Positions 6,501 to 63,111 of a stretch of 64,000 bases of DNA are shown piece by piece (position 1 is the first letter of the stretch; the number at the start of each line of letters is the position of its first letter). The notes beneath the pieces were generated by a model. The model saw only the letters and a program-made list of their open reading frames with translations, did no database searches and had not been told where the DNA came from. The DNA lies in the NCBI GenBank assembly GCA_037951105.1, contig JBAMJV010000832.1, forward strand, positions 62,001 to 126,000, written 5' to 3'. A program made the translations under genes and the position numbers. The stretch comes from Echinarachnius parma. Taxonomy: Eukaryota > Echinodermata > Echinoidea > Clypeasteroida > Echinarachniidae.

Positions 6501-9500
6501 TCTCTTTTATTAAATGTAGACATGGCGATATCCAGCATCTTATCGTCTGGTGCTCGACGTCCTGTTGTTTGATTGAGGTGTTGTTGGTGGTCATGTTGTT
6601 GCCTCTGTTGTCCCTTCCAGGGCTCCGTATGTAATGAGCAATTTCGAGCTCCTAATAAGTTTGTTTGTAAATATGAAAATACTGAATCGATATGAGATAT
6701 GTGTATTTTAGAGCGCATAATGTCTGGATTCTCTCTCATTTGTTCCTAACAGGGCATGGACAACTGGCGATCCGACAAGGAGTTCGGCTATCTGCGTCTG
6801 GCGGGCTGTAATGCCGCAGTCCAAATCAGGCTCTGCACTCAAATACCAGAAAAGTAAGAGTTAAAGTGCATGAAATTTCTCTTTTCTGCAATAGCAGCGG
6901 TTGATTGAGAAGAATTGTTGATGAAAATTGTGTGACAACGGTCGAGAAAATAAGAGATACATGGCAGTTTTCATTTCATGAATAAACAAGAATCTATGCC
7001 ATAGGCCATACTTGCCTCCGATTTTGATATCATACACGTACGTCTGATGTACTGTGTGTGTACATGGAATGTTACAGCACTGTGTTCTTTTTGTTGTGAG
7101 TAGTGGTGTCTGTGGTTAATAGACCTTTGGTTTTATAAAATATGTATTGTGAGCATTATTCCACACAATTTAACAAAAAGATTTCCATTTCATTGGAGAT
7201 CATTCTTACAGAGACGACCATCCATTTTTGCGATTGGGGGTGGCGGGGAGGGGGCAACATTTTTCGGAATCATCAGTAAAAGAGCTAGAAGCCCTACATA
7301 GCAAGCCTAAAAATTGACGATTGGGGTAGTTTCGTTCTTTTTTTTCAACAGGGACCACTATAGGCAAGGAACAACACGTAATTCTATTTTTTTGGAGCCG
7401 CTGGGTGATATGCCAACCATTTTGCAAAGGGTTTTGTAATTTATCAACAATGCACTTAATTACCACCACATAGATAACCAATATGGCCGATGGTTCCGTA
7501 AGCACCAAACTTCTCGGAGTGCGCCAATTCTATTCTCGTGTACGTTTAGATACAATAAAATCGCTATGGACACTACGTAGTCTTCGTCTACAGACCCATA
7601 AACAAGGTGACGCGTTTTTTTCTCGATTAATATATAATTTGTCTGGAAACCTATAATGTTTTACCTGACGGTGGATTGGACTACTAAATATGTAACCTTT
7701 CATTTATAAAATAGCTGATTTTGTTCTTTCAAGTCGCAAGATTGCAGGATCTCAAAGCCTGAATAGAATACTGTTCAAACTATCATCGTGTCAAACACTT
7801 CATTTTCACAAACATAGCAATGCCAGCCTGGGACGATATGCGTGAGGTTTACATTTTAGCATATTAACATATATAACTTCAATCATTTATCTCCGATCCA
7901 TCCCTTTACCTAGACTCCCCGTGACAGACGAAATGTTGAAACCACTGCTGGAAGACATGTCTGTACACGAGGCAATAGAGAAGAAACGGCTGTTCATGAT
8001 AGACTACGAAATCCTAAAGGATTTGCCCATGGTGGACTCTGCAGTGGTAAGATTAGCAAGAAAATGTTGAATTTATTACAAATTGGCGAAAGTACACAGC
8101 TCATGTACAGCTCATGCCTACTGGAACCAGGTTGGGTATGTACAAAGTCTATGGGGATTTCAGAATTTCGAGGGGAACGGGGTAATCCTTATTTTAATTA
8201 TCAATATAAAGCCACAAACATGATGAAGCAATACATTAAATTGACACATCATAAAGTTGGTATTAGTTTTCCTTTTTGGGAATGATTTATATAAGCAACG
8301 GCTGATCCCAAGACCAATACATACTTGAGGAACCTATGTAATTAAATATTATATTTTGTATTGGTATGATCTACATTTCGTATGTTTTAGTTCGCTTTAG
8401 ATTTTTCTTCGGGTTCGATTTATAAACTGCTTCCTTTGATCCCACCACTAATGTACAATTTAGGATCATGTGAAATAAATTATATATCATAGTTTCAGTC
8501 ACTAAAGTAGACATTGACCAATACTCAACTATATCTTTAAAGAATACTCTTCACCTAGTTATTAAAGGGGTCATTGGCGCCAAATGGTTTCAACTACTGC
8601 CTATTGATTTTGAACATCTATTCTTAGTCAATCATAAATAATCTCCATGAGAAGGGAGAAAATAAAATCAATTCATTCTTCTAATCACTTTATTAAAAGT
8701 GACTTTTAATGCAGAGGACGTTTTTTTTTTCCAGGTCGTAAGACGCTTGAGCTAAAATGTTTTAGGACTGCACTAGCTGCAATTGAAATAATTGTTGTTT
8801 TCCGGTACGTGGCTATGATCAGATAGTTTGATTTCCTTTTGAATAATATGGGTTCTTTTTCTGTTCAACACTTTTTTTTCAGATGCCTGCCCCCATCGGT
8901 CTTTTTTTCGTCAACAAGGACACGAATTTGATGCCAGTAGCCATCCAGCTGTTCCAAGACCCGGGAAAAGATAATCCGGTAATTTTTGTTTAAGTGGTAG
9001 TGTCGCTAAACTATAGATGGTGCTTTTAGAGATCTCATCTGCCTGAGATATCACACGCCACGAGATCCGTTAAAAGTGTAAGCCGCTTTGTAATCACGAT
9101 GCCTGAAAAGGGTACGAGATTAGGGCTGCGGCACACTTTTGAGATAGCAGTACGAAATAATGCGAGTACCGGTCTAGCAATCCGAAGGTCTCAGATTCTA
9201 TTTTCGGTGAAGTCCATTTTTATTTGCTCATTTTCATTTATTAGGTGGGCTGTACATCATACAGACCACCTCATAATTTCGTTAGAATTGCCTTTATTTA
9301 TTTATTTATTTATTAGGTGGGCTGTACATCATACAGACCACCTCATAATTTCGTTAGAATTGCCTTTATTTATTTATTAGGTGGGCTGTACATCATACAG
9401 ACCACCTCATAATTTCGTTAGAATTGCCTTTATTTATTTATTTATTTATTTATTATTATTCTTTATTTTTCTTATTTCCAATCACTTTTTTGTTAGCAAG

Positions 9501-12500
9501 ATAACTTGAAAATGGCTCAATCAAGTGCCTTGAAATTTGGCACACATATATATAGGCATATGGACAAAGCAAAATAAGGTTTTGAACCCTGACCTTGACT
9601 GATGACGTCATCTAGGCGCCATTTTGTAAAATTTTCTGAATATCTTCTCATGATCATATCTTCATAACGAAAAGTTGTTTCTCATTCATATTTATCATGA
9701 TCAAGGTCAATATCCGTCCGGTCAATTTCAGGTCAAAAAACGCGCGCGCATGCGTACGTGCGCGCGTCAGCGCGCGCGCAAAATTTTAAAATGTTCAAAA
9801 TCGTCGCAAATTCATTTTGGATACGTTTTAGGCCATTTTAAGCATTTTACGAAAAAACGCGCACACGCGCATGCGCGCGCGTTTTCGCGCGTACTGGCAT
9901 TTTGCAACATAGAATCGCCGAATTTTCTCTGTTATCATATTTAGCCCATCTTTCCAAGCATTTTGATACCTTGTTCACCTTTTTCTGACTAGTAAAAACG
10001 CAATGAGCTTCCGTTCAAGAAACATGTCCGTGCGCGCGAGCTCTTGTAATACATAGCATATATGGGCAAAAACATGCCTATACAAAATTCATTGTAACTC
10101 TTCAGAATGGATGGGAACTCCCAAGTTTTTTTTCATATTTGGATAGATTATGAGTCGGAGATATGATTTCATGTCTCATTTGACCCTCAATTAACTCATG
10201 GCGTCATCATAATGGCCTCCGAACTCAAAATTTCAATTTGCATATTATGACGTCAGCATATTTTTGGAAAATTTATTGTATCTCTGTAAATATTGATCGA
10301 TTTTCTTCCAAATTTTGATATGTTCTATCTGAGACAATTCTCTACAAATGTGATGATCACGATTTTTCATTTTGACAAAGGCATCATGGCGTATTTTTGC
10401 GATTTAAGGAGGTATGTCATTTTTTCACATTTTGCGTGTATTCTCTATGGGACATGACTTTTTTTCAAAACTGGATTCTACATTCCCGTCTTTCGCGGCC
10501 AATATCTTCTTCGTTTTAGCTTCGTTTACGCTGAACTTCGAGTATGTTGTAGCTGAGACAATAAGCTATCTCAAATGAGCCCTTGATTATGTCTTTAATT
10601 TTAGTTCGACCAGCCCACCTATACTTGTTCTAAACAAGTATTACAATTCTAGTTTATTATTATTAGGTGGGCTGTACATCATACAGACCACCTCATAATT
10701 TCGTTAGAATTGCCTTTATTTATTAGGTGGGCTGTACATCATACAGACCACCTCATAATTTCGTTAGAATTGCCTTTATTAGGTGGGCTGTACATCATAC
10801 AGACCACCTCATAATTTCGTTAGAATTGCCTTTATTTATTATTATTATTTATTTTTCTTATTTCCAATCACTTTTTTGTTAGCAAGATAACTTGAAAATG
10901 GCTCAATCAAGTGCCTTGAAATTTGGCACACATATATATAGGCATATGGACAAAGCAAAATAAGGTTTTGAACCCTGACCTTGACTGATGACGTCATCTA
11001 GGCGCCATTTTGTAAAATTTTCTGAATATCTTCTCATGATCATATCTTCATAACGAAAAGTTGTTTCTCATTCATATTTATCATGATCAAGGTCAATATC
11101 CGTCCGGTCAATTTCAGGTCAAAAAACGCGCGCGCATGCGTACGTGCGCGCGTCAGCGCGCGCGCAAAATTTTAAAATGTTCAAAATCGTCGCAAATTCA
11201 TTTTGGATACGTTTTAGGCCATTTTAAGCATTTTACGAAAAAACGCGCACACGCGCATGCGCGCGCGTTTTCGCGCGTACTGGCATTTTGCAACATAGAA
11301 TCGCCGAATTTTCTCTGTTATCATATTTAGCCCATCTTTCCAAGCATTTTGATACCTTGTTCACCTTTTTCTGACTAGTAAAAACGCAATGAGCTTCCGT
11401 TCAAGAAACATGTCCGTGCGCGCGAGCTCTTGTAATACATAGCATATATGGGCAAAAACATGCCTATACAAAAATCATTGTAACTCTTCAGAATGGATGG
11501 GAACTCCCAAGTTTTTTTCATATTTAGATAGATTATGAGTCGGAGATATGATTTCATGTCTCATTTGACCCTCAATTAACTCATGGCGTCATCATAACGG
11601 CCTTCCAACTCAAAATTTCAATTAGCATATTATGACGTCAGCATATTTTTGGAAAATTGATTGTATCTCTGTAAATGTTGATCGATTTTCTTCCAAATTT
11701 TGATATGTTCTAGCTCAGACAATTTTCTACAAATGTAATCACCACGATTTTTCATTTTGACAAAGGCATCATGGCGTATTTTTGCGATTTAAGGAGGCAT
11801 GTCATTTTTTAACATTTTGCGTGTATTCTCTATGGGACATGACTTTTTTTCAAAACTGGATTCTACATTCCCGTCTTTCGCGACCAATATCTTCTTCGTT
11901 TTAGCTTCGTTTACGCTGAACTTCGAGTATGTTGTAGCTGAGACAATAAGCTATCTCAAATGAGCCCCTGATTATGTCTTTAATTTTAGTTCGACCAGCC
12001 CACCTATACTTGTTCTAAACAAGTATTACAATTCTAGTTATTATTATTATTATTATTCTTTATTTTTCTTATTTCCAATCACTTTTTTGTTAGCAAGATA
12101 ACTTGAAAATGGCTCAATCAAGTGCCTTGAAATTTGGCACACATATATATAGGCATATGGACAAAGCAAAATAAGGTTTTGAACCCTGACCTTGACTGAT
12201 GACGTCATCTAGGCGCCATTTTGTAAAATTTTCTGAATATCTTCTCATGATCATATCTTCATAACGAAAAGTTGTTTCTCATTCATATTTATCATGATCA
12301 AGGTCAATATCCGTCCGGTCAATTTCAGGTCAAAAAACGCGCGCGCATGCGTACGTGCGCGCGTCAGCGCGCGCGCAAAATTTTAAAATGTTCAAAATCG
12401 TCGCAAATTCATTTTGGATACGTTTTAGGCCATTTTAAGCATTTTACGAAAAAACGCGCACACGCGCATGCGCGCGCGTTTTCGCGCGTACTGGCATTTT

Positions 12501-15500
12501 GCAACATAGAATCGCCGAATTTTCTCTGTTATCATATTTAGCCCATCTTTCCAAGCATTTTGATACCTTGTTCACCTTTTTCTGACTAGTAAAAACGCAA
12601 TGAGCTTCCGTTCAAGAAACATGTCCGTGCGCGCGAGCTCTTGTAATACATAGCATATATGGGCAAAAACATGGCTATACAAAATTCATTGTAACTCTTC
12701 AGAATGGATGGGAACTCCCAAGTTTTTTTTCATATTTGGATAGATTATGAGTCGGAGATATGATTTCATGTCTCATTTGACCCTCAATTAACTCATGGCG
12801 TCATCATAATGGCCTCCAAACTCAAAATTTCAATTTGCATATTATGACGTCAGCATATTTTTGGAAAATTGATTGTATCTCTGTAAATGTTGATCGATTT
12901 TCTTCCAAATTTTGATATGTTCTAGCTCAGACAATTTTCTACAAATGTAATAACCACGATTTTTCATTTTGACAAAGGCATCATGGCGTATTTTTGCGAT
13001 TTAAGGAGGCATGTCATTTTTTAACATTTTGCGTGTATTCTCTATGGGACATGACTTTTTTTCAAAACTGGATTCTACATTCCCGTCTTTCGCGACCAAT
13101 ATCTTCTTCGTTTTAGCTTCGTTTACGCTGAACTTCGAGTATGTTGTAGCTGAGACAATAAGCTATCTCAAATGAGCCCTTGATTATGTCTTTAATTTTA
13201 GTTCGACCAGCCCACCTATACTTGTTCTAAACAAGTATTACAATTCTAGTTATTCTTTATTTTTCTTATTTCCAATCACTTTTTTGTTAGCAAGATAACT
13301 TGAAAATGGCTCAATCAAGTGCCTTGAAATTTGGCACACATATATATAGGCATATGGACAAAGCAAAATAAGGTTTTGAACCCTGACCTTGACTGATGAC
13401 GTCATCTAGGCGCCATTTTGTAAAATTTTCTGAATATCTTCTCATGACCATATCTTCATAACGAAAAGTTGTTTCTCATTCATATTTATCATGATCAAGG
13501 TCAATATCCGTCCGGTCAATTTCAGGTCAAAAAACGCGCGCGCATGCGTACGTGCGCGCGTCAGCGCGCGCGTAAAATTTTAAAATGTTCAAAATCGTCG
13601 CAAATTCATTTTGGATACGTTTTAGGCCATTTTAAGCATTTTACGAAAAAACGCGCACACGCGCATGCGCGCGCGTTTTCGCGCGTACTGGCATTTTGCA
13701 ACATAGAATCGCCGAATTTTCTCTGTTATCATATTTAGCCCATCTTTCCAAGCATTTTGATACCTTGTTCACCTTTTTCTGACTAGTAAAAACGCAATGA
13801 GCTTCCGTTCAAGAAACATGTCCGTGCGCGCGAGCTCTTGTAATACATAGCATATATGGGCAAAAACATGCCTATACAAAATTCATTGTAACTCTTCAGA
13901 ATGGATGGGAACTCCCAAGTTTTTTTTCATATTTGGATAGATTATGAGTCGGAGATATGATTTCATGTCTCATTTGACCCTCAATTAACTCATGGCGTCA
14001 TCATAATGGCCTCCGAACTCAAAATTTCAATTTGCATATTATGACGTCAGCATATTTTTGGAAAATTTATTGTATCTCTGTAAATATTGATCGATTTTCT
14101 TCCAGATTTTGATATGTTCTATCTGAGACAATTCTCTACAAATGTGATGATCACGATTTTTCATTTTGACAAAGGCATCATGGCGTATTTTTGCGATTTA
14201 AGGAGGTATGTCATTTTTTCACATTTTGCGTGTATTCTCTATGGGACATGACTTTTTTTCAAAACTGGATTCTACATTCCCGTCTTTCGCGACCAATATC
14301 TTCTTCGTTTTAGCTTCGTTTACGCTGAACTTCGAGTATGTTGTAGCTGAGACAATAAGCTATCTCAAATGAGCCCTTGATTATGTCTTTAATTTTAGTT
14401 CGACCAGCCCACCTATACTTGTTCTAAACAAGTATTACAATTCTAGTTATTATTTATTTTTCTTATTTCCAATCACTTTTTTGTTAGCAAGATAACTTGA
14501 AAATGGCTCAATCAAGTGCCTTGAAATTTGGCACACATATATATAGGCATATGGACAAAGCAAAATAAGATTTTGAACCCTGACCTTGACTGATGACGTC
14601 ATCTAGGCGCCATTTTGTAAAATTTTCTGAATATCTTCTCATGATCATATCTTCATAACGAAAAGTTGTTTCTCATTCATATTTATCATGATCAAGGTCA
14701 ATATCCGTCCGGTCAATTTCAGGTCAAAAAACGCGCGCGCATGCGTACGTGCGCGCGTCAGCGCGCGCGCAAAATTTTAAAATGTTCAAAATCGTCGCAA
14801 ATTCATTTTGGATACGTTTTAGGCCATTTTAAGCATTTTACGAAAAAACGCGCACACGCGCATGCGCGCGCGTTTTCGCGCGTACTGGCATTTTGCAACA
14901 TAGAATCGCCGAATTTTCTCTGTTATCATATTTAGCCCATCTTTCCAAGCATTTTGATACCTTGTTCACCTTTTTCTGACTAGTAAAAACGCAATGAGCT
15001 TCCGTTCAAGAAACATGTCCGTGCGCGCGAGCTCTTGTAATACATAGCATATATGGGCAAAAACATGCCTATACAAAATTCATTGTAACTCTTCAGAATG
15101 GATGGGAACTCCCAAGTTTTTTTTCATATTTGGATAGATTATGAGTCGGAGATATGATTTCATGTCTCATTTGACCCTCAATTAACTCATGGCGTCATCA
15201 TAATGGCCTCCGAACTCAAAATTTCAATTTGCATATTATGACGTCAGCATATTTTTGGAAAATTGATTGTATCTCTGTAAAGGTTGATCGATTTTCTTCC
15301 AAATTTTGATATGTTCTAGCTGAGACAATTCTCTACAAATGTGGTGATCACGATTTTTCATTTTGACAAAGGCATCATGGCGTATTTTTGCGATTTAAGG
15401 AGGCATGTCATTTTTTAACATTTTGCGTGTATTCTCTATGGGACATGACTTTTTTTCAAAACTGGATTCTACATTCCCGTCTTTCGCGACCAATATCTTC

Positions 15501-18500
15501 TTCGTTTTAGCTTCGTTTACGCTGAACTTCGAGTATGTTGTAGCTGAGACAATAAGCTATCTCAAATGAGCCCTTGATTATGTCTTTAATTTTAGTTCGA
15601 CCAGCCCACCTATACTTGTTCTAAACAAGTATTACAATTCTAGTTATTCTTTATTTTTCTTATTTCCAATCACTTTTTTGTTAGCAAGATAACTTGAAAA
15701 TGGCTCAATCAAGTGCCTTGAAATTTGGCACACATATATATAGGCATATGGACAAAGCAAAATAAGGTTTTGAACCCTGACCTTGACTGATGACGTCATC
15801 TAGGCGCCATTTTGTAAAATTTTCTGAATATCTTCTCATGATCATATCTTCATAACGAAAAGTTGTTTCTCATTCATATTTATCATGATCAAGGTCAATA
15901 TCCGTCCGGTCAATTTCAGGTCAAAAAACGCGCGCGCATGCGTACGTGCGCGCGTCAGCGCGCGCGCAAAATTTTAAAATGTTCAAAATCGTCGCAAATT
16001 CATTTTGGATACGTTTTAGGCCATTTTAAGCATTTTACGAAAAAACGCGCACACGCGCATGCGCGCGCGTTTTCGCGCGTACTGGCATTTTGCAACATAG
16101 AATCGCCGAATTTTCTCTGTTATCATATTTAGCCCATCTTTCCAAGCATTTTGATACCTTGTTCACCTTTTTCTGACTAGTAAAAACGCAATGAGCTTCC
16201 GTTCAAGAAACATGTCCGTGCGCGCGAGCTCTTGTAATACATAGCATATATGGGCAAAAACATGCCTATACAAAATTCATTGTAACTCTTCAGAATGGAT
16301 GGGAACTCCCAAGTTTTTTTTCATATTTGGATAGATTATGAGTCGGAGATATGATTTCATGTCTCATTTGACCCTCAATTATCTCATGGCGTCATCATAA
16401 TGGCCTCCGAACTCAAAATTTCAATTTGCATATTATGACGTCAGCATATTTTTGGAAAATTGATTGTATCTCTGTAAATGTTGATCGATTTTCTTCCAAA
16501 TTTTGATATGTTCTAGCTCAGACAATTTTCTACAAATGTAATAACCACGATTTTTCATTTTGACAAAGGCATCATGGCGTATTTTTGCGATTTAAGGAGG
16601 CATGTCATTTTTTAACATTTTGCGTGTATTCTCTATGGGACATGACTTTTTTTCAAAACTGGATTCTACATTCCCGTCTTTCGCGACCAATATCTTCTTC
16701 GTTTTAGCTTCGTTTACGCTGAACTTCGAGTATGTTGTAGCTGAGACAATAAGCTATCTCAAATGAGCCCTTGATTATGTCTTTAATTTTAGTTCGACCA
16801 GCCCACCTATACTTGTTCTAAACAAGTATTACAATTCTAGTTTATTATTATTCTTTATTTTTCTTATTTCCAATCACTTTTTTGTTAGCAAGATAACTTG
16901 AAAATGGCTCAATCAAGTGCCTTGAAATTTGGCACACATATATATAGGCATATGGACAAAGCAAAATAAGGTTTTGAACCCTGACCTTGACTGATGACGT
17001 CATCTAGGCGCCATTTTGTAAAATTTTCTGAATATCTTCTCATGATCATATCTTCATAACGAAAAGTTGTTTCTCATTCATATTTATCATGATCAAGGTC
17101 AATATCCGTCCGGTCAATTTCAGGTCAAAAAACGCGCGCGCATGCGTACGTGCGCGCGTCAGCGCGCGCGCAAAATTTTAAAATGTTCAAAATCGTCGCA
17201 AATTCATTTTGGATACGTTTTAGGCCATTTTAAGCATTTTACGAAAAAACGCGCACACGCGCATGCGCGCGCGTTTTCGCGCGTACTGGCATTTTGCAAC
17301 ATAGAATCGCCGAATTTTCTCTGTTATCATATTTAGCCCATCTTTCCAAGCATTTTGATACCTTGTTCACCTTTTTCTGACTAGTAAAAACGCAATGAGC
17401 TTCCGTTCAAGAAACATGTCCGTGCGCGCGAGCTCTTGTAATACATAGCATATATGGGCAAAAACATGCCTATACAAAATTCATTGTAACTCTTCAGAAT
17501 GGATGGGAACTCCCAAGTTTTTTTTCATATTTGGATAGATTATGAGTCGGAGATATGATTTCATGTCTCATTTGACCCTCAATTAACTCATGGCGTCATC
17601 ATAACGGCCTTCCAACTCAAAATTTCAATTAGCATATTATGACGTCAGCATATTTTTGGAAAATTGATTGTATCTCTGTAAATGTTGATCGATTTTCTTC
17701 CAAATTTTGATATGTTCTAGCTCAGACAATTTTCTACAAATGTAATAACCACGATTTTTCATTTTGACAAAGGCATCATGGCGTATTTTTGCGATTTAAG
17801 GAGGCATGTCATTTTTTAACATTTTGCGTGTATTCTCTATGGGACATGACTTTTTTTCAAAACTGGATTCTACATTCCCGTCTTTCGCGACCAATATCTT
17901 CTTCGTTTTAGCTTCGTTTACGCTGAACTTCGAGTATGTTGTAGCTGAGACAATAAGCTATCTCAAATGAGCCCTTGATTATGTCTTTAATTTTAGTTCG
18001 ACCAGCCCACCTATACTTGTTCTAAACAAGTATTACAATTCTAGTTTTTTATATTCCTGGGCCCCGTTGCAGAAAGATATACAATCGATCGTAAGTTACG
18101 ATTGATCGTAAGTTAGAAAATTTACGCGTTTCAACCAATCAGATTTGCGCATCTAGAACACGTGATGTGACTTACGATCAATTGCAAGTTACAATCGATT
18201 GTATCTCTTTCTGCAACGGGGCCCAGGTCAGTTTCCTCTTTGTTTGAATTTGATAAGTAAAATGCTGCATCACTTCGCGTGATCCCTCGCACTTTCCTTA
18301 CAAAATTTGATTTAATTATCTTTTGGTTAGAGCCAAGTTGATATAGCTTATGATTATGTGAGCAATGAAAATGGTATTATGGGAACGTCCACAACTGAAG
18401 GGTCTGTGTGGCTCGATGGTTGAGCACCTGTCTAGCTAACTGGATGTCTCGGGTTCGATTCCAGGCGAAGCCTATTTTTCTTTGCTCATTTTAATTCATT

Positions 18501-19489
18501 ATTAAAAGTATTAAAAATCACTAAAATCGCTACCGTAGATTTTCCTGCCGTCAGACCAAGAGTATGTTTGGCTGTTGGCGAAGATGTGGTTCAACCTTGC
18601 TGACGGATCATTCCACCAGTCCGTCACTCACTTCGGCTTCACTCACCTGGTCATGGAATCAGTTACCGTGGCAACGCATCGCTGCCTCTCACCCTCCCAT
18701 CCCATCTTCCGCCTCTTGGCTCCACACTTCCTCTACCTGGTCGCCATCAATACGTGAGTACTATCTTTCAGTAGCCACGGTGGCGCAGTTATGGGGATGA
18801 GAGGTCAATGTCCACTCCGGTCCTAGGAAAAGTGATGAGAATATAATTATACTAAACATCTACATAACATATTGATTTAAAAGCTGCCTCGTAATTCAAT
18901 TCGTGGCATCACATATCTTCCTGTCAGTGGCAAGCAACATTGAGTGATATGTTTCTAGGATCAGCCAGATCTTTGATGGAACAGGAACAAATTTCATATA
19001 TCAGAATGGTCAGTTAGCACTTACCACTAATTGAAACAATCCCATCTTCTTTCTCCCAACCGCGTATGAGTTGACCAAAAAATTCGATTATTTGTATTGG
19101 CCCCAGTTCGTTGAAGGATGTACATCATGCACTTTCGTAATAGTAAATTCGAACAAAGCTTCTCTAATTGGTTTTCTTTCCTACAGAAGAGCGTTAGGGG
19201 AGCTTATCTCTCCCGGTGGCTACGTGGACCAAACGATGTCAACTGGTGCTAACGGATTTTTCGAGATCCTCCGCAGGGCTTGGGCCACATGGTCTCTGGA
19301 CCGAGAGGGTTCTCTCCTCAATGACCTGAAAGACCGGGGCGTCTCTGACCCGGAAGTACTTCCCAACTACCACTACCGGGACGACGCGCTGCTTTTGCGC
19401 GAGGCCATATACGACTACGTCAAGGCAATCGTTGAGCACTACTACAGTGAGAACTATGATGATGGATAATGGGGATGATGGCTGGTTTT

Positions 19490-40400: not shown

Positions 40401-43400
40401 CTTTTGTGACATCATAATACCATTCAACCATCAGTCAGCTAGATGAACAAAAGACATTGGTATGTCCACTGACCACCTGTTCACAATAGCATTGCATGTT
40501 TTATACAATGCCCACTCACCATGAAAAGAAGGGTTTCAATGAAAACATCCAATGCTAATGCAATAAGGTACTCAGTGGGTGAGAACATATCTTTTGTTTA
40601 TGTTTATCTAGCTGATCGATGGTTGAATGGTATTGTGATGTCAGAAAAGTCAATGGTGGAGGGTTTTTTTAGGGGTGGATCTTAGCAGGTAGAATAAAAA
40701 TAATAGAAAAAATAGTATACACAATATGACAAAAATGTATATCAAATAGTCAACAGATATGTGTTGTTACGTAATTGATAATTGAAATTGATACGTAGAT
40801 ATGAGCGTTGTAGCAAGAAGGTGGCTCTGTTCTACCGTGGGTTGGGATCAGCCGTTGGGGGCCGGTTTGGTCGGGGTAGTGTCATGGCGACGTATCGTAC
40901 GCTGGTTCGCATCAGTGTTCCGTTGATTGGTTGAGTGTCCGTGTGCACCGGCCAATAGACGCGGTGCGTTGTTGACCTATCAGGAACGTACTCGCTTATG
41001 CAAGATTGTGGGTTTTGGAGCCACGGTAGAGCATAAAAACCGATTGTCTACATTAGATTATATCATTTGACAAAGTATTGCAGCGGCATACGAAACGTCA
41101 TGATCTTTTAGATTCCTAGTTTGACCATACATTGCGAGACAAACGAATATCACTAGCGATATTATTTCCGATATGTGTTGTATTCATTATTATAGATCAA
41201 CCAAAGTCAACATGCCTTTTTAATTTAGTCACCCTTTAAAGAAAGGCATTTTGAATAATGTATAATTAGGGGTATTTTTTAATGCCAATTTTTTTCCCGT
41301 TTTTGTGTTAAAAAGAGGGTATGATTTGCAAAAAATGTACTCGAAACGCCGCAAATAGGTTTGTTTCTTTATTCCTCTAGATCAATCATTAATGTTGTCT
41401 CCCCTTGAATATGAAGTGAAGGGGGTAAGCTGCTATAATGTATAGACAGGGCCCGGGCCGCAAGACAGGGTTGTCTGTACATATTGAGGAATTATTGTCC
41501 TGTTGGTTTTTCAGAGTGTTATTTACAATTTCAGTCCCCGCTAAAAGGCGCGAATTACCGGTCATCCCTGCAGGCCACATTTCGGGGCACGACAAACTAA
41601 CCTATGAGCGGGAACTAGACCAAGAACGGGAAGTTGATCTCCATGGCCTCTCAGTCCGAAATGCAATGGAGAAAATGAAAAAGGCCCTATTTGATATGCG
41701 AGGGAAGACGGGCTACCTAGATATCATCACGGGACGGGGTCTTCACAGCAAAGGAGGGGTGCCGAAAATAAAACCTGCAGTCGAACAATACTTGAAGAAC
41801 AGCAGTTATCGTGACAGGTACGAACATAAACAACAACATATAAGAATGAGATTACATTTCGTATTAGAACTAAAATAAATGTCATTTTCAAAATCCAGAG
41901 GTCGGATATGGGTGTACAGGGCTATAGGTTGTGCATGGGTGTGCAAAAGGCCAGCTTGAAAAGGCCCCTGCTTTAAATGTGCCCGTATACACCCATGTGT
42001 AGGATAGTATACAGTGTGAGTCAAATAAAACGAAATCGGAATTTAATAGCTAATGAATCCACAATTCTAAAAAAAAAATTCAAAGATAACTTCATCATAC
42101 ATGTCCTATTCAGTGCCCCCTGTCTCCAAACAGTGGGGTTTCTAGTGGGAGGAGGGTGGGGGATCCCCTTCCACCATGATAAGCATGACAACCAGCTAGC
42201 ATTTTGTTTTGATTCACCAAAGGATATTCTTCAAATGTTATTTTGAAAAAACGGTAAACAGACGCACCAGTCATGATGGAACAAGAAAACGGCAAACTTT
42301 GACATGTGTAGTTTTTACATGACTTTGGAGTGTCGAATTTGAAAGAGCATGCAATTTTAATGGCAGAATAAATTTTATTTGGTCAAAATCGGTTCAGAAA
42401 TGGCTGAAATATCAATAAATATATCCGATTCTTATACATTTGGGCCCCAAATTTATTCGATGATTTAAAAAATATTTGTTTAAATGCTTAACGGTACACT
42501 TTTTCATAAATTTTCAAAAGCGGTTTTTAAATAGTTGCTGATGATCTCTCTATTTAATCATTATTTCAACCAAACATCACATGCATAATTTATATTAAAA
42601 ATGGTTAAAACCAATGCCTTTTTAAGAGACCGCCCTCTTGTGTTTTAATGGCTCTTTTTGAATGATAACAGGCTTTTTACTTAGTCGTTTGTAATTTTGT
42701 ATACCTTTCGAGCATGGCGGAGTTATAACAATTAGTTTGTGATGTTACTGTGCAGGTTTTGGTTACTAAAGTTCAACCTTACCAAAACTGTACTACCTCT
42801 TTAACTCCTTGAGTGCCAAGCTCGCATTTGTGTGAGTTACAATACATACAAATGCCATAGAGCATTAAAATCATTGGCACTTTAAGAGTTAAAGGCAATT
42901 TCCCCAAGCTTTAACATAATACCAATATCAACATATGTATGTTTAGAATTATGGATTTATAATCAAAGTCCGGTTTCGTTTTTTTTTTCTCGCACAGCTT
43001 TATTTATTCTGCTAATATACCATTTTAAACAAAGAAAGTATGTACAAGCCTATGGAAAAGAGTCAGTTTACCCAATTTCATTTTCACTCTATAATTGGCC
43101 ATATGACATTCACGGCATGAAACTTTTACAAATCGTAAATTATATTGAAATATCAAATTGCGGTAATAAACATTTTATTTTAAGCCACTTTAGTCTAAAT
43201 TAAGTTATTGTGCTTGCCCTCCATAGCCCAAATTCACAAAAACCTACTTAGGACTCTAGCGGTTCTCACATTCCTTGGTATTTTCATTAACAATAGAAGT
43301 ATGGAACATGTTTTCGTTTTCTGAATGGTTCCGTCGTTATAAAGATATGTATGATTGAAGTTTTCGAATTTGAACTTCTCCCTGGCAGTCTTACAAATTT

Positions 43401-54563: not shown

Positions 54564-57500
54564 CTGATAAAGAGAGAATTAAAATAAACTGATTGATTTG
54601 CAAGGATCACGAGTGTTTTTCGACAAAAAGGATATCAAATGACATTAAAGGGGACCACCAGGCAAACAACAAGTAGCTATATTGTGTTGGTACCGTTGTG
54701 TAATATTAAATAGATGCTCAACACTTTACAAAGGGTTGTGTAATTCTTAAACCATCATTATCTGATGGTTCCGTATGCGCGAAACGTCTGAGAGTGCGCC
54801 AATTCTATTCACGCGTACGTTTGGAGAAAGGTAGTCTTTATATATGCAGACCCATGAACGTATGCTTTTGAATGATAATGTGTTTTCCAATTATATATAT
54901 ATATATATATATTTTTCTAAACTTGTTGGTGGAATGGACTACTAAATTAGTAGTCCATTCCACCATCAATGAAAGGTAACATCTTTACAAGATGTTACCT
55001 TTCATTTTTAAGAATATTATTGTTGGGTGGTGGTACCCTTTAATTGTGTTCGGCCCTCTGTTATCGTGAACACGTATGTAAGATAAATGTTCCGTGTGTA
55101 TTCCTGTCGGTGTTAGTGTTTCGTTAATTGTCTGGTTGTGTAAACGAGGTGGTGAATAATTAAATGCGTGTAATTAATGCAAGATCCTGGTAAAATATTC
55201 ATTCCCATAGTTAAATTTCCAGGAAACATGCATGATCTTATCAAAGAACACTATATCTACTCGAGAAAGGCATTTGAGTGACCATTTTAAGTAATTACGA
55301 TCATTATCATCATCGTCATTGTTACCACAACTATCAACATCGACATCACCAACATCATGATCATCATCACCATCATTATCATCATCGCTAAAAATTATCA
55401 TAACCACGAACATAACCACCACCGCGATCCACACATCATCTTCATCATAATGATCACATTACGATCAAAATAACCATCATCATCCCCATTTTAATCATAA
55501 ATGTCGTCGCCATTGCCACCAACATCTTCATTATCATTAATACCCTCGTAACCATTATATTAATCATCGTTTTCACCATCATCATTGTCGTCGTAGCTAT
55601 TATCTTCATAATTACCCCCAACGTTATCAAAATAATCGATATCATAATCTTAATTATCATAATCATTAATATTACTATCATAATTCATCAACAATGTTAC
55701 ATTAGTATCATCATCGTCGTCACAATCATCATCATCGCCGTCGTCATCATTATTATCATCATCATCATCATCATCACAACCCTTGTTATCATAATCATCT
55801 TTATAATCATAATATTCATCATCGCCATCGTCACAATCACTATAACCACCACGGCACCACCATCACAAGCACCACTTGTCTCGCAGTTTCTTAGCTTGAC
55901 ATCTTTTTAATAGCTTTACCCTCTCTTCATCCTCGTCGTTGCAGCATCTCCATGAGAGATACATAATCTCCTCCACGGCTCGGTGAACCATCATGGCCTC
56001 CGAGCTTTGGGGTTCGGGTTGCCTTGCCAACAGAGGGGTAAACCTGTTGCCTCCCCTGTAACCGCGGCCACTCGTACCTGTGTCAGGATGCAGGGTGAGG
56101 AAGGAAGATAACAGAACATTATTGAACAACGGTAAGACATGGCAATGGGGGTATAATTGGCTGATCGATCGTTCTAAATATATGTGCAGGTTATTTCTTG
56201 ATTTTATTACGTCATTATTTTGAGAACAAAATTATGATGCATTCATTAATGTATATGTATATGTATATGTTTTATTAGAATTGAAATCAACATTAAAATG
56301 ATATCTCCGTTCACTCGGACTCGCTTCTCATTACCCGGTGTTTCATCATCGGAGTCATCGTCTATATCGGACTCTATTTCTCTCCGCATTCGCGCTGTGT
56401 ACGAGTTGCCCTTATTTTCCATGACAATCTTCTGGTAGTCCACCGAACCCCGAGCCATAGCTTCCCGACTAAGGCTGATCCCCACGTGGCGAAAGCGCTT
56501 GTTGTACTGCTCCGGCATATGAAGACCAATGTAGTCGGGTAAGATCTCTAAGAAGAACCGCCGGACCCAGCGTGGCATGCTGTGCGCCTCTGGCGACCTG
56601 AACCGGACATTCAGCACAAATACGGTGAGGACGATGGACGACGCGACGATCAACATGGTGAAGAGCAGGTATTTGACGATGAGCGGGAAGTTGTTTGCGT
56701 TGGGCGGGATCTGGGCCGTCACGAGCAGCAGGAAGACAGTCATGGAGAGTAGCACGCTGATGCAGAGCGCCATCTTCTCGCTGATGTCCGAGGGCAGATA
56801 GAACACCAGGACAGTGTTGAAGGATATCAGACCGCATGGCATCAGGATGTACGCCACGTAGTACAGCGGCTTCCTGCGCAGCAAGAAGGTGCAGGTGATA
56901 TCCTGGTAGGGCTCTGCGCAACATGGGTAGGTGACCACGTGCTTTTCGCACGGGGACTTGACTATCTGCCACTCCCCGTTATCCCAGTAGTCTCTCGCGT
57001 CCGCGTGGTCATTTAACGGGATCATGTTCATGGTCCAGCCGTCGTAGGTCCAGGAACCGAACTTCAAGCTGCAGTTCTGCTCGTCGAACGGGTAGAAGGC
57101 GACGTTGATCCTGCACGAGCTCTTGTAGACGACGGGAGGAAACCACGTGACCATCCCGTCATGGCGGATACTGGTCCACGATGCTGATTGGATGTTGAAA
57201 TCACCGTCAGCGCTACAGTATATGGAATATAGTAGGGAATGGAGAGTAGTAGTTAGCCAGCGGAAATCTAGGCAATTTGATACAAATTTAGCCAATCTGA
57301 TGATGCAATTGATTTGCTTTTAAATCACATTGATCTACATGGGTGCGGGAATATTTTACGGAGATTAAATCACGAATAAGCTGGAGTTGATGTGAATGAG
57401 TGTTGATTAAGTCTCACAAAATTCGGTTCTGATATAAACGTTACCCAATTTTTTTTTTTTTAAGGAAATATTTTTAAATAAACATATGTTCTTACTAAAT

Positions 57501-61650: not shown

Positions 61651-63111
61651 TTTTTTTGCTATAATCTTGGAAACACTTTTTAATTTGGTCTAAATACATT
61701 ACTGATGATAAAAAGTGATGTTTCCATTTTTTATTTTTGGTCCCAGGGTGCATTTTGGCGATTTTAAAGATAATGTGCTAATTTGCATTTTTTTGAAATA
61801 AGGTCAGGGGTCATTTTCTATCTAGGAATAGTACAATATTGATAAAAACTAGTATTCTATGGTATTTTGGGGCAAGGATTCCATTTCCGGTGCTCGTTTG
61901 TAAGTGCTGTATGGGAAACACTCTGAAATCCAAGATGGCTGCCCCTAATTTGCATATTTATGAATATTATTGATTTTCAGTGGCTACAGCCCCTAATAAG
62001 CAATAATTCCGGATTATTATTTGTCAGTTATGTTCTAAGTATGTATTTAAGATATCAAAGATGAGTTGCCATCGTGGCAACTTCTAGTAATGCATATTAT
62101 TTGCATAATTATGTATTTTACCTAATTTGCATATTCCCCCAAATCGAGTATATTGGGAACCCGGCAAGTAAAAAAGACAAGTAATACCACTTTTCCAAGG
62201 TTTTAGGGGGCAACAAATCCATTTATGATACTTATTTACCTGTATCACCTCGGCAACTAATATAAATCCAAGATGGCCGCCTTTGTCATTTTAAAATAAA
62301 TATTGCTATTTGCTACTTTAATGGCATTTAATTTATCAAAATATGATTTGTTTACTGAAAGCAAACAACTACATTGTGATTCAAGTATTCTAGTTGCTCA
62401 TTCCAATAATTAAAAGTCAAAACATTACAATATCAATCTAATATAACCGAAATAATATAGACGTGTATCATAACATGCGTAATTTAGGGAGCAGCCATCT
62501 TGGATTTGAGATGGATGCCATGGTGATACAGGTAAATAAGTATCAAAAATGGATCTGCTGCCCCCCAAAACCTTGGAAAATTGGTATTACTTATCTTTTT
62601 TACTTGTCGGGATCCCAATATACTCTATTTGGGGGAATATGCAAATTAGGTGAAATACATAATTATGCAAATAATATGCATTGCTAGAGGTTGCCACGAT
62701 GGCAACTCATCTTTGATATCTTAAATACATACTTAGAACATAACTGACATATAATAATCCAGAATTATTGCTTATTAGGGGCTGTAGCCACTGAAAATCA
62801 ATAATATTCATAAATATGCAAATTAGGGGAAGCCATCTTGGATTTCAGAGCGTTTCCCATACAGCACTTACAAACGAGCACCGGAAATGGAATCCTTGCC
62901 CCAAAATACCATAGTTTTTATCAATATTGCACTATTCCTAGATAAAAAATGACCCCTGACCTTATTTCACAAATATGCAAATTAGCTAATTATCTTTAAA
63001 ATCGCCAAAATGCACCCTGGGACCAAAAATAAAAAATGGAAACATCACTTTTTCTCATCAGTAATGTATGTAGACCAAATTAAAAACTGTTTCCAAGATT
63101 ATAGCAAAAAA
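61651..63111. mobile_element. 1.46-kb foldback element
   Basis: Left-arm sequence from TTTTTTTGCTATAATCTTGG onward is mirrored at the right, ending CCAAGATTATAGCAAAAAA. Arms of about 620 bases pair across a loop of about 200 bases (62290-62488), with TGCACCCTGGGACCAAAAAT, GCATATTATTTGCATAATTA and CCAAGATGGC blocks present in both. No coding capacity is seen. Confidence 0.9.

Follow-up and report, generated by a model that had tools for sequence, protein, structure and literature searches.

Head-to-tail arrays of a Helentron-like family in Echinarachnius parma and their probable growth by self-insertion

How does a short transposon that encodes no transposition enzyme of its own come to be stacked seven times, in one orientation, within a single intron? 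The question is raised by a 64,000-nucleotide stretch of the echinoid Echinarachnius parma (assembly GCA_037951105.1, contig JBAMJV010000832.1, positions 62,001 to 126,000, forward strand; hereafter the window), in which such an array occupies positions 9243-18044 of the + strand, between sequences resembling lipoxygenase exons. Our answer, which we hold to be probable, is that the arrays of this family arise by repeated insertion of the element into its own microsatellite, followed in some of them by segmental amplification.

The array in the window and the anatomy of one copy

The array comprises seven right ends (R) and six left-end blocks (L). A preliminary description had recognized seven head-to-tail units, and this is borne out by the right ends, which start at 10611, 11996, 13208, 14405, 15602, 16799 and 18003, all on the + strand, and which each consist of the subterminal repeat CAGCCCACCT, the hairpin ATACTTGTT..AACAAGTAT and a final CTAG. 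Their successive spacings (1385, 1212, 1197, 1197, 1197 and 1204) include the three consecutive intervals of 1197 bases reported in that description. The 19-base pattern CAGCCCACCTATACTTGTT, searched with up to three mismatches, was found seven times in the window and in none of 100 shuffles. Left blocks had been placed only before units 1 and 2, which is correct, but their number had been missed: there are six identical 50-bp copies, three before unit 1 (9243, 9315 and 9379) and three before unit 2 (10665, 10725 and 10781), with (TTTA)n pieces between the members of each triplet. Measured from the start of the body to CTAG, the units are 1183-1184 bp long (n=7), and they vary at 27 aligned columns, 24 of which lie past column 600. 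As had also been proposed, the array sits in a putative lipoxygenase intron, with exon matches on both sides in the same orientation, the exons being called from Pfam and PDB matches. The features, in which "bracket-matched" denotes the pairing under the nesting scheme discussed below, are as follows.

9243..9292, +, left-end block L1 (subterminal repeat AGGTGGGCTG and inverted partner, hairpin), bracket-matched to unit 6
9293..9314, +, microsatellite of L1, left piece, (TTTA)n, interrupted
9315..9364, +, left-end block L2, bracket-matched to unit 5
9379..9428, +, left-end block L3, forming an uninterrupted element with unit 1
9429..9468, +, microsatellite of L3, (TTTA)n(TTA)m, uninterrupted, the proposed landing site
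9469..10652, +, unit 1, body and R (R at 10611-10652: subterminal repeat, hairpin, CTAG)
10653..10664, +, microsatellite piece between R of unit 1 and L4
10665..10714, +, left-end block L4, bracket-matched to unit 4
10725..10774, +, left-end block L5, bracket-matched to unit 3
10781..10830, +, left-end block L6, forming an uninterrupted element with unit 2
10855..12037, +, unit 2, body and R
12066..13249, +, unit 3, body and R, with no L directly upstream
13263..14446, +, unit 4, body and R
14460..15643, +, unit 5, body and R
15657..16840, +, unit 6, body and R
16861..18044, +, unit 7, body and R, with no partner L in the array
8877-8978, +, upstream flank, putative lipoxygenase exon (PDB lipoxygenases, E 5e-6; 34 aa, no Pfam match)
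18539-18751, +, downstream flank, putative lipoxygenase exon (PF00305, E 3.1e-18)

One copy of the element reads TT, L, a (TTTA)n(TTA)m microsatellite, a body of about 1.18 kb, and R with its hairpin and CTAG. Within L, the subterminal repeat AGGTGGGCTG lies 2 nt behind the terminal TT, provided that TT is counted in the element, and is followed by the inverted partner AGACCACCT, which is partly complementary to it with one stem mismatch, and then by the microsatellite; folded as DNA, L reaches -11.3 kcal/mol. At the other end, CAGCCCACCT starts 42 nt and stops 32 nt before the 3' end, and the hairpin, with a 9-bp stem, ends 11 nt before the end of CTAG (-6 kcal/mol, z about -5). TT is present at both ends of the copies and could be either the element's own TT or a 2-bp duplication. 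Canonical Helitrons have TC at the 5' end and CTRR at the 3' end, without terminal inverted repeats; our element falls outside this definition, since, although its CTAG fits, it begins with TT AGG and carries subterminal inverted repeats.

Non-autonomous Helentrons (HINEs) are described, in the portion of PMC4067079 used here, as having a 5' subterminal inverted repeat 2-4 nt from the 5' end and a 3' one 38-60 nt from the 3' end (values for mites), and a palindrome 8-35 nt from the 3' end. The E. parma element has both subterminal inverted repeats at corresponding positions, a palindrome near its 3' end, and an inverted partner with an adjoining microsatellite. Judged by this anatomy the family is a non-autonomous Helentron (HINE), in agreement with the preliminary description, and its copies elsewhere, solo copies included, likewise end in CTAG before TT.

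Two features of other kinds border the array. Close to its right flank, at 18059-18224, lies a short element with the terminal inverted repeats GGGCCCCGTTGCAG, and a sequence similar to it starts near the right flank of the solo copy on contig C59 described below. Positions 9160-9241 and 18400-18500 hold two similar sequences, perhaps tails of a tRNA-derived short interspersed element, and the array begins where the first of them ends.

Copies, junctions and orientation across the genome

The assembly searched comprises 1.2 Gb in 14790 contigs. Genome counts allow up to two mismatches, while positions are those of exact matches only, 100 per end in contig order, so that both ends are fully covered for contigs C1-C391 and L for C1-C906. 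In total we counted 1418 L and 1442 R, with none for the reversed-pattern controls. Seventeen contigs of C1-C391 carry an exact L or R: nine have one of each, three have one L without an exact R, and five hold arrays. In the nine, the distance from L to R is 1206-1230, or about one intact copy, and none of them is among the contigs with L-L, R-L or R-body junctions, lists that extend past C391. These are the solo copies that the preliminary description had suggested looking for. The one on C59, of which the two ends were read, shows the flank ...GCATAA, then TT and L, an uninterrupted microsatellite and the start of the body, and at its right end CTAG followed by TTTGTT.

With exact anchors, the genome holds 786 L-L junctions, 309 R-L junctions and 844 junctions of R with a body lacking L. 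The near-equality of L and R is what bracketed copies would give, and nesting likewise leads one to expect equal numbers of L-L and R-body junctions. The free ends implied are 323 left and 289 right, in a calculation that mixes exact and two-mismatch counts.

We then parsed stretches of 14 contigs including the window, the best-scoring 14 of 566 candidates scored; since they were chosen by score, long arrays are over-represented. They contain 119 L and 157 R, in a single orientation per contig (0 of 276 ends opposite). TT follows all 157 R and precedes all 119 L, and TTATT precedes 107 of the latter. After R, 110 cases continue with a piece of microsatellite and a body without L and 37 with L, only 5 of these 37 directly. 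An L directly after CTAG|TT occurs six times, five times behind an R of the family itself and once behind a sister element. For arrays with both flanks present, L and R number 6/7 in the window, 9/10 in C4790, 4/3 in C4527, 5/11 in C2936, 3/6 in C11266, 7/7 in C1536 and 8/7 in C10732; C1536 is fully balanced, with the bracket string LLLRRLRRLLLRRR. A second array, that of C8078, seemed balanced as well (20 L, 20 bodies) but was rejected, since it continues past a sister-family insertion to 25 L and 22 bodies, and it was counted as cut at its right side. The sister family in C8078 shares the layout of the main one (left hairpin TTAGGTTATAC..., a second hairpin AATTCGTC..GACGAATT, and CTAG at the end); its element sits in a body at TTTAA|TT, with main-family L blocks directly after its CTAG|TT.

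As for a source of transposition proteins, the genome gave 52 matches to Helitron_like_N, many of them within long open frames, so that helpers of that class exist in it. A helper sharing the ends of the family was not identified, none of the matches being tied to L or R in the comparison of C1-C906: six contigs there have Helitron_like_N, and only C379 also has an exact L, in an array 23 kb away. The open frames with Helitron_like_N reach 4719 aa, and ten matches have identical scores, which possibly points to a recent autonomous Helitron family.

How the arrays may have grown

The scheme that we favour would run as follows. By rolling-circle transposition, with a helper acting in trans, new copies would insert at A|TT, a target suggested by the junctions. 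The microsatellite inside the left end would offer many such sites in a row, all of them on the same strand, and a newcomer would land within the microsatellite of an older copy, in the same orientation as its host. Each landing would push the host's L leftward and its body and R rightward, splitting the host's microsatellite into a left piece after the host L and a right piece before the host body. Nested brackets would result, with runs of L followed by runs of body and R, all head to tail, and some arrays would later be enlarged by segmental duplication. In a model (TTTA)n(TTA)m tract, ATT occurs 10 times on one strand and 0 times on the other, so that with A|TT as the target all self-insertions would have the same orientation.

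If brackets are real, the two microsatellite pieces assigned to one host should fit each other. Joined across their brackets, the tracts were valid in 59 of 64 cases, against a mean of 53.2 when right pieces were permuted (3 of 5000 did as well). Leaving out C4507, 53 of 57 were valid, against 48.7 (40 of 5000), and an initial round that treated TTTC units somewhat more strictly had given 54 of 59, against 48.3 (4 of 2000). Among 21 local cases, none of the seven left pieces that contain TTA units was paired with a right piece starting with TTTA, and all eight such right pieces follow a pure TTTA left piece (hypergeometric 0.015, calculated by hand). In the 10 arrays whose left end is intact, the positions of the L runs allowed 91 of 113 bodies to be matched; free permutation gave 76.3 (0 of 5000 as good), and with the first run fixed the mean was 85.4 (145 of 5000 as good). 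A simple random-nesting simulation gave a mode of 3 for the first run and 1 for inner runs.

The units of an array are, on the whole, no closer to one another than to units elsewhere. Among 76 bodies the mean difference was 13.99 within arrays and 13.88 between them, and nearest neighbours from the same array numbered 4.58 against 4.75 expected; among 140 bodies the means were 12.23 and 12.56, with 45 of 500 shuffles as low. Most units therefore look as if they had been drawn independently from a pool that spans the genome, and a minority are internal duplicates.

Several observations nevertheless weigh against repeated self-insertion, or at least against self-insertion as the only process. 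In the set of 140 bodies, same-array nearest neighbours were in excess (29.0 against 11.4 expected, 0 of 500 shuffles), which implies that part of the growth was internal duplication. Five of the 64 joined tracts are invalid. The agreement between L and R and that between L-L and R-body junctions do not test the scheme independently of each other, and each combines exact with two-mismatch counts. L is short in four of the complete arrays listed above (C2936, C11266, the window and C4790), is one too many in two (C4527 and C10732), and is in deficit over the 14 parsed contigs; in exact matches only, L and R number 1/4 in C8, 27/48 in C201, 1/6 in C359, 6/15 in C379 and 2/5 in C382, one of these arrays being partly cut. 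Since the parsed arrays are poorer in L than the genome, other places must be richer, for example C975:74251-75332, where about 19 L stand in a row (18 L-L junctions), perhaps by slippage. Traces of age are also wanting: interrupted bodies, expected to be older, show no significant excess of private substitutions (1.50 against 1.31 in intact ones, p 0.28), last units, expected to be the oldest, have few (mean 0.57, n=7; for C10732 this is the final unit that has the normal length), and the haplotypes show no stratification with nesting position, 1 of 18 sites reaching p 0.0498. Finally, 8 of 10 arrays open with a run of exactly three L, whereas the simulation gives that length in a fraction of about 0.35. 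As regards the missing left ends, contraction of the repeats of about 60 bp that contain L, 5' truncation or later amplification of bodies are possible causes, and the array of C379 does open with a truncated unit; assembly collapse or error at the tandem L blocks is possible too.

The frequent first run of 3 and the L deficits could be accommodated by supposing that the native element carries three L, or an L minisatellite prone to slippage, and that 5'-truncated copies without L inserted beside an existing R. Joint movement of three L with one body and one R would explain the first run of 3; composites with several 5' ends may be mobile as wholes, a proposal made for Fusarium with two (PMC5148889, as far as excerpted here). 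The linker between R and body reads TTATTC in 24 of 97 cases, or 33 of 97 when a C-to-A variant is counted. We regard this explanation as unlikely all the same, given the nine contigs with a single exact L, a single exact R and no junction, the fit between bracket-matched microsatellite pieces and the near-equal numbers of L and R genome-wide.

Growth in the manner of an ordinary satellite, in which one or two founder copies multiply by unequal crossing-over or segmental duplication, has left marks in certain arrays. In C201 the spacing series 1204, 1190, 1210, 1207, 1197, 1205 recurs with a period of 7213, and in C396 the period is 8538, so that secondary amplification does occur. C4507 has near-identical units at an offset of 4281 bp, of the 111 pairs of units that show no more than two differences 17 fall in one array (9.5 expected), and the interval of 1197 appears three times in the window. 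Among 150 bodies, the largest same-array excesses (observed/expected) were those of C7345 (11.0/2.3), C2936 (4.4/0.7), C2038 (5.3/1.8) and C4507 (4.5/2.3). As the sole origin of the arrays, however, we find such growth quite unlikely, because it leaves unexplained why L runs stand apart from body runs, why L and R are nearly equal in number across the genome and why most units resemble those of other arrays. The region C201:148210-217770, about 70 kb with 48 exact R and 27 exact L in the period of 7213, resembles a young satellite.

The weakest account is the one suggested in the preliminary description and reported in the literature for head-to-tail Helitron arrays (PMC4067079 and PMC12628747, in the parts drawn on), in which replication runs beyond the 3' end and one event inserts the same element several times over. 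The five direct junctions, CTAG|TT then L, are what a circle would give. A concatemer of one template, however, predicts such junctions and neighbour-like units, whereas most R lead into an incomplete microsatellite and an L-less body, the L blocks are clustered in runs and units that share an array are on average no nearer to one another than to units elsewhere, so that we consider this account very improbable.

If repeated self-insertion is indeed the process, each array could be read as a bracketed record of separate insertions, their order included, and would provide a countable alternative to replication run-past, the usual account of rolling-circle transposon arrays. It would also show concretely how a dispersed transposon can turn into satellite-like DNA, with nesting first and segmental amplification second. 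A further, doubtful proposition, which we put forward tentatively, is that selection maintains the microsatellite as a landing pad specific to one strand. By directing most new copies into existing ones (786 + 309 = 1095 left ends stand directly after another end of the family, compared with 1418 L counted), the element would then limit damage to its host, and the arrays would be raw material for satellites.

Elsewhere in the window, Pfam matches indicate a putative exon of a neurotransmitter-gated ion channel (56246-57319, - strand) and a predicted Smr domain in an open frame (41429-41878, + strand), and positions 61652-63111 hold a large inverted repeat whose arms, of 424 and 200 nt, lie close together and are 94-96% complementary.

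Comparison with known systems

The closest anatomical parallels are the HINEs and DINE-1, which share with the E. parma family the 5' subterminal inverted repeats a few bases from the end, the microsatellite and the 3' palindrome; DINE-1 also has an inverted repeat adjoining its 5' subterminal repeat. HINEs insert at T-rich sites with no evident target modification, which may hold for the E. parma family too. Their arrays are ascribed to a bypassed termination signal, however, and self-nesting in their own microsatellite is not described in the sections of PMC4067079 consulted. According to the same sections, the proto-Helentron of Phytophthora resembles our element in its 5' TT, its 3' CTAG and, given the A|TT target suggested here, its insertion between A and T, but it is autonomous, about 14 kb long and has Helitron-like ends. 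Cg_HINE of the Pacific oyster also combines a left subterminal inverted repeat, inverted repeat and microsatellite with a right subterminal inverted repeat and palindrome; as presented in the excerpts of PMC7492417, its tandem repeats lie within one element, whereas the E. parma family stacks whole elements.

With regard to arrays, PMC12628747, in the passages drawn on, describes the rolling-circle amplified centromeric Helitrons of Xiong 2016 and the double insertions of McGurk and Barbash, systems in which, as may be the case here, transposon arrays seed satellite DNA and insertion preference causes dimers. Xiong's Helitrons have many 5' ends and a single 3' end, in contrast to the present arrays, in which both ends are numerous and bracketed. 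Self-insertion itself was proposed for FoHeli, the non-canonical Helitrons of Fusarium, to account for multiple 5' termini with one 3' terminus, and a three-copy tandem in Metarhizium was read either as two insertions into the 5' end or as rolling circle (PMC5148889). Those cases are few and both readings were kept, with neither a microsatellite landing site nor long arrays in the portion of that study used here. In the parts of the open-access literature consulted we found no family that builds long arrays by self-nesting, PMC5148889 being the nearest report.

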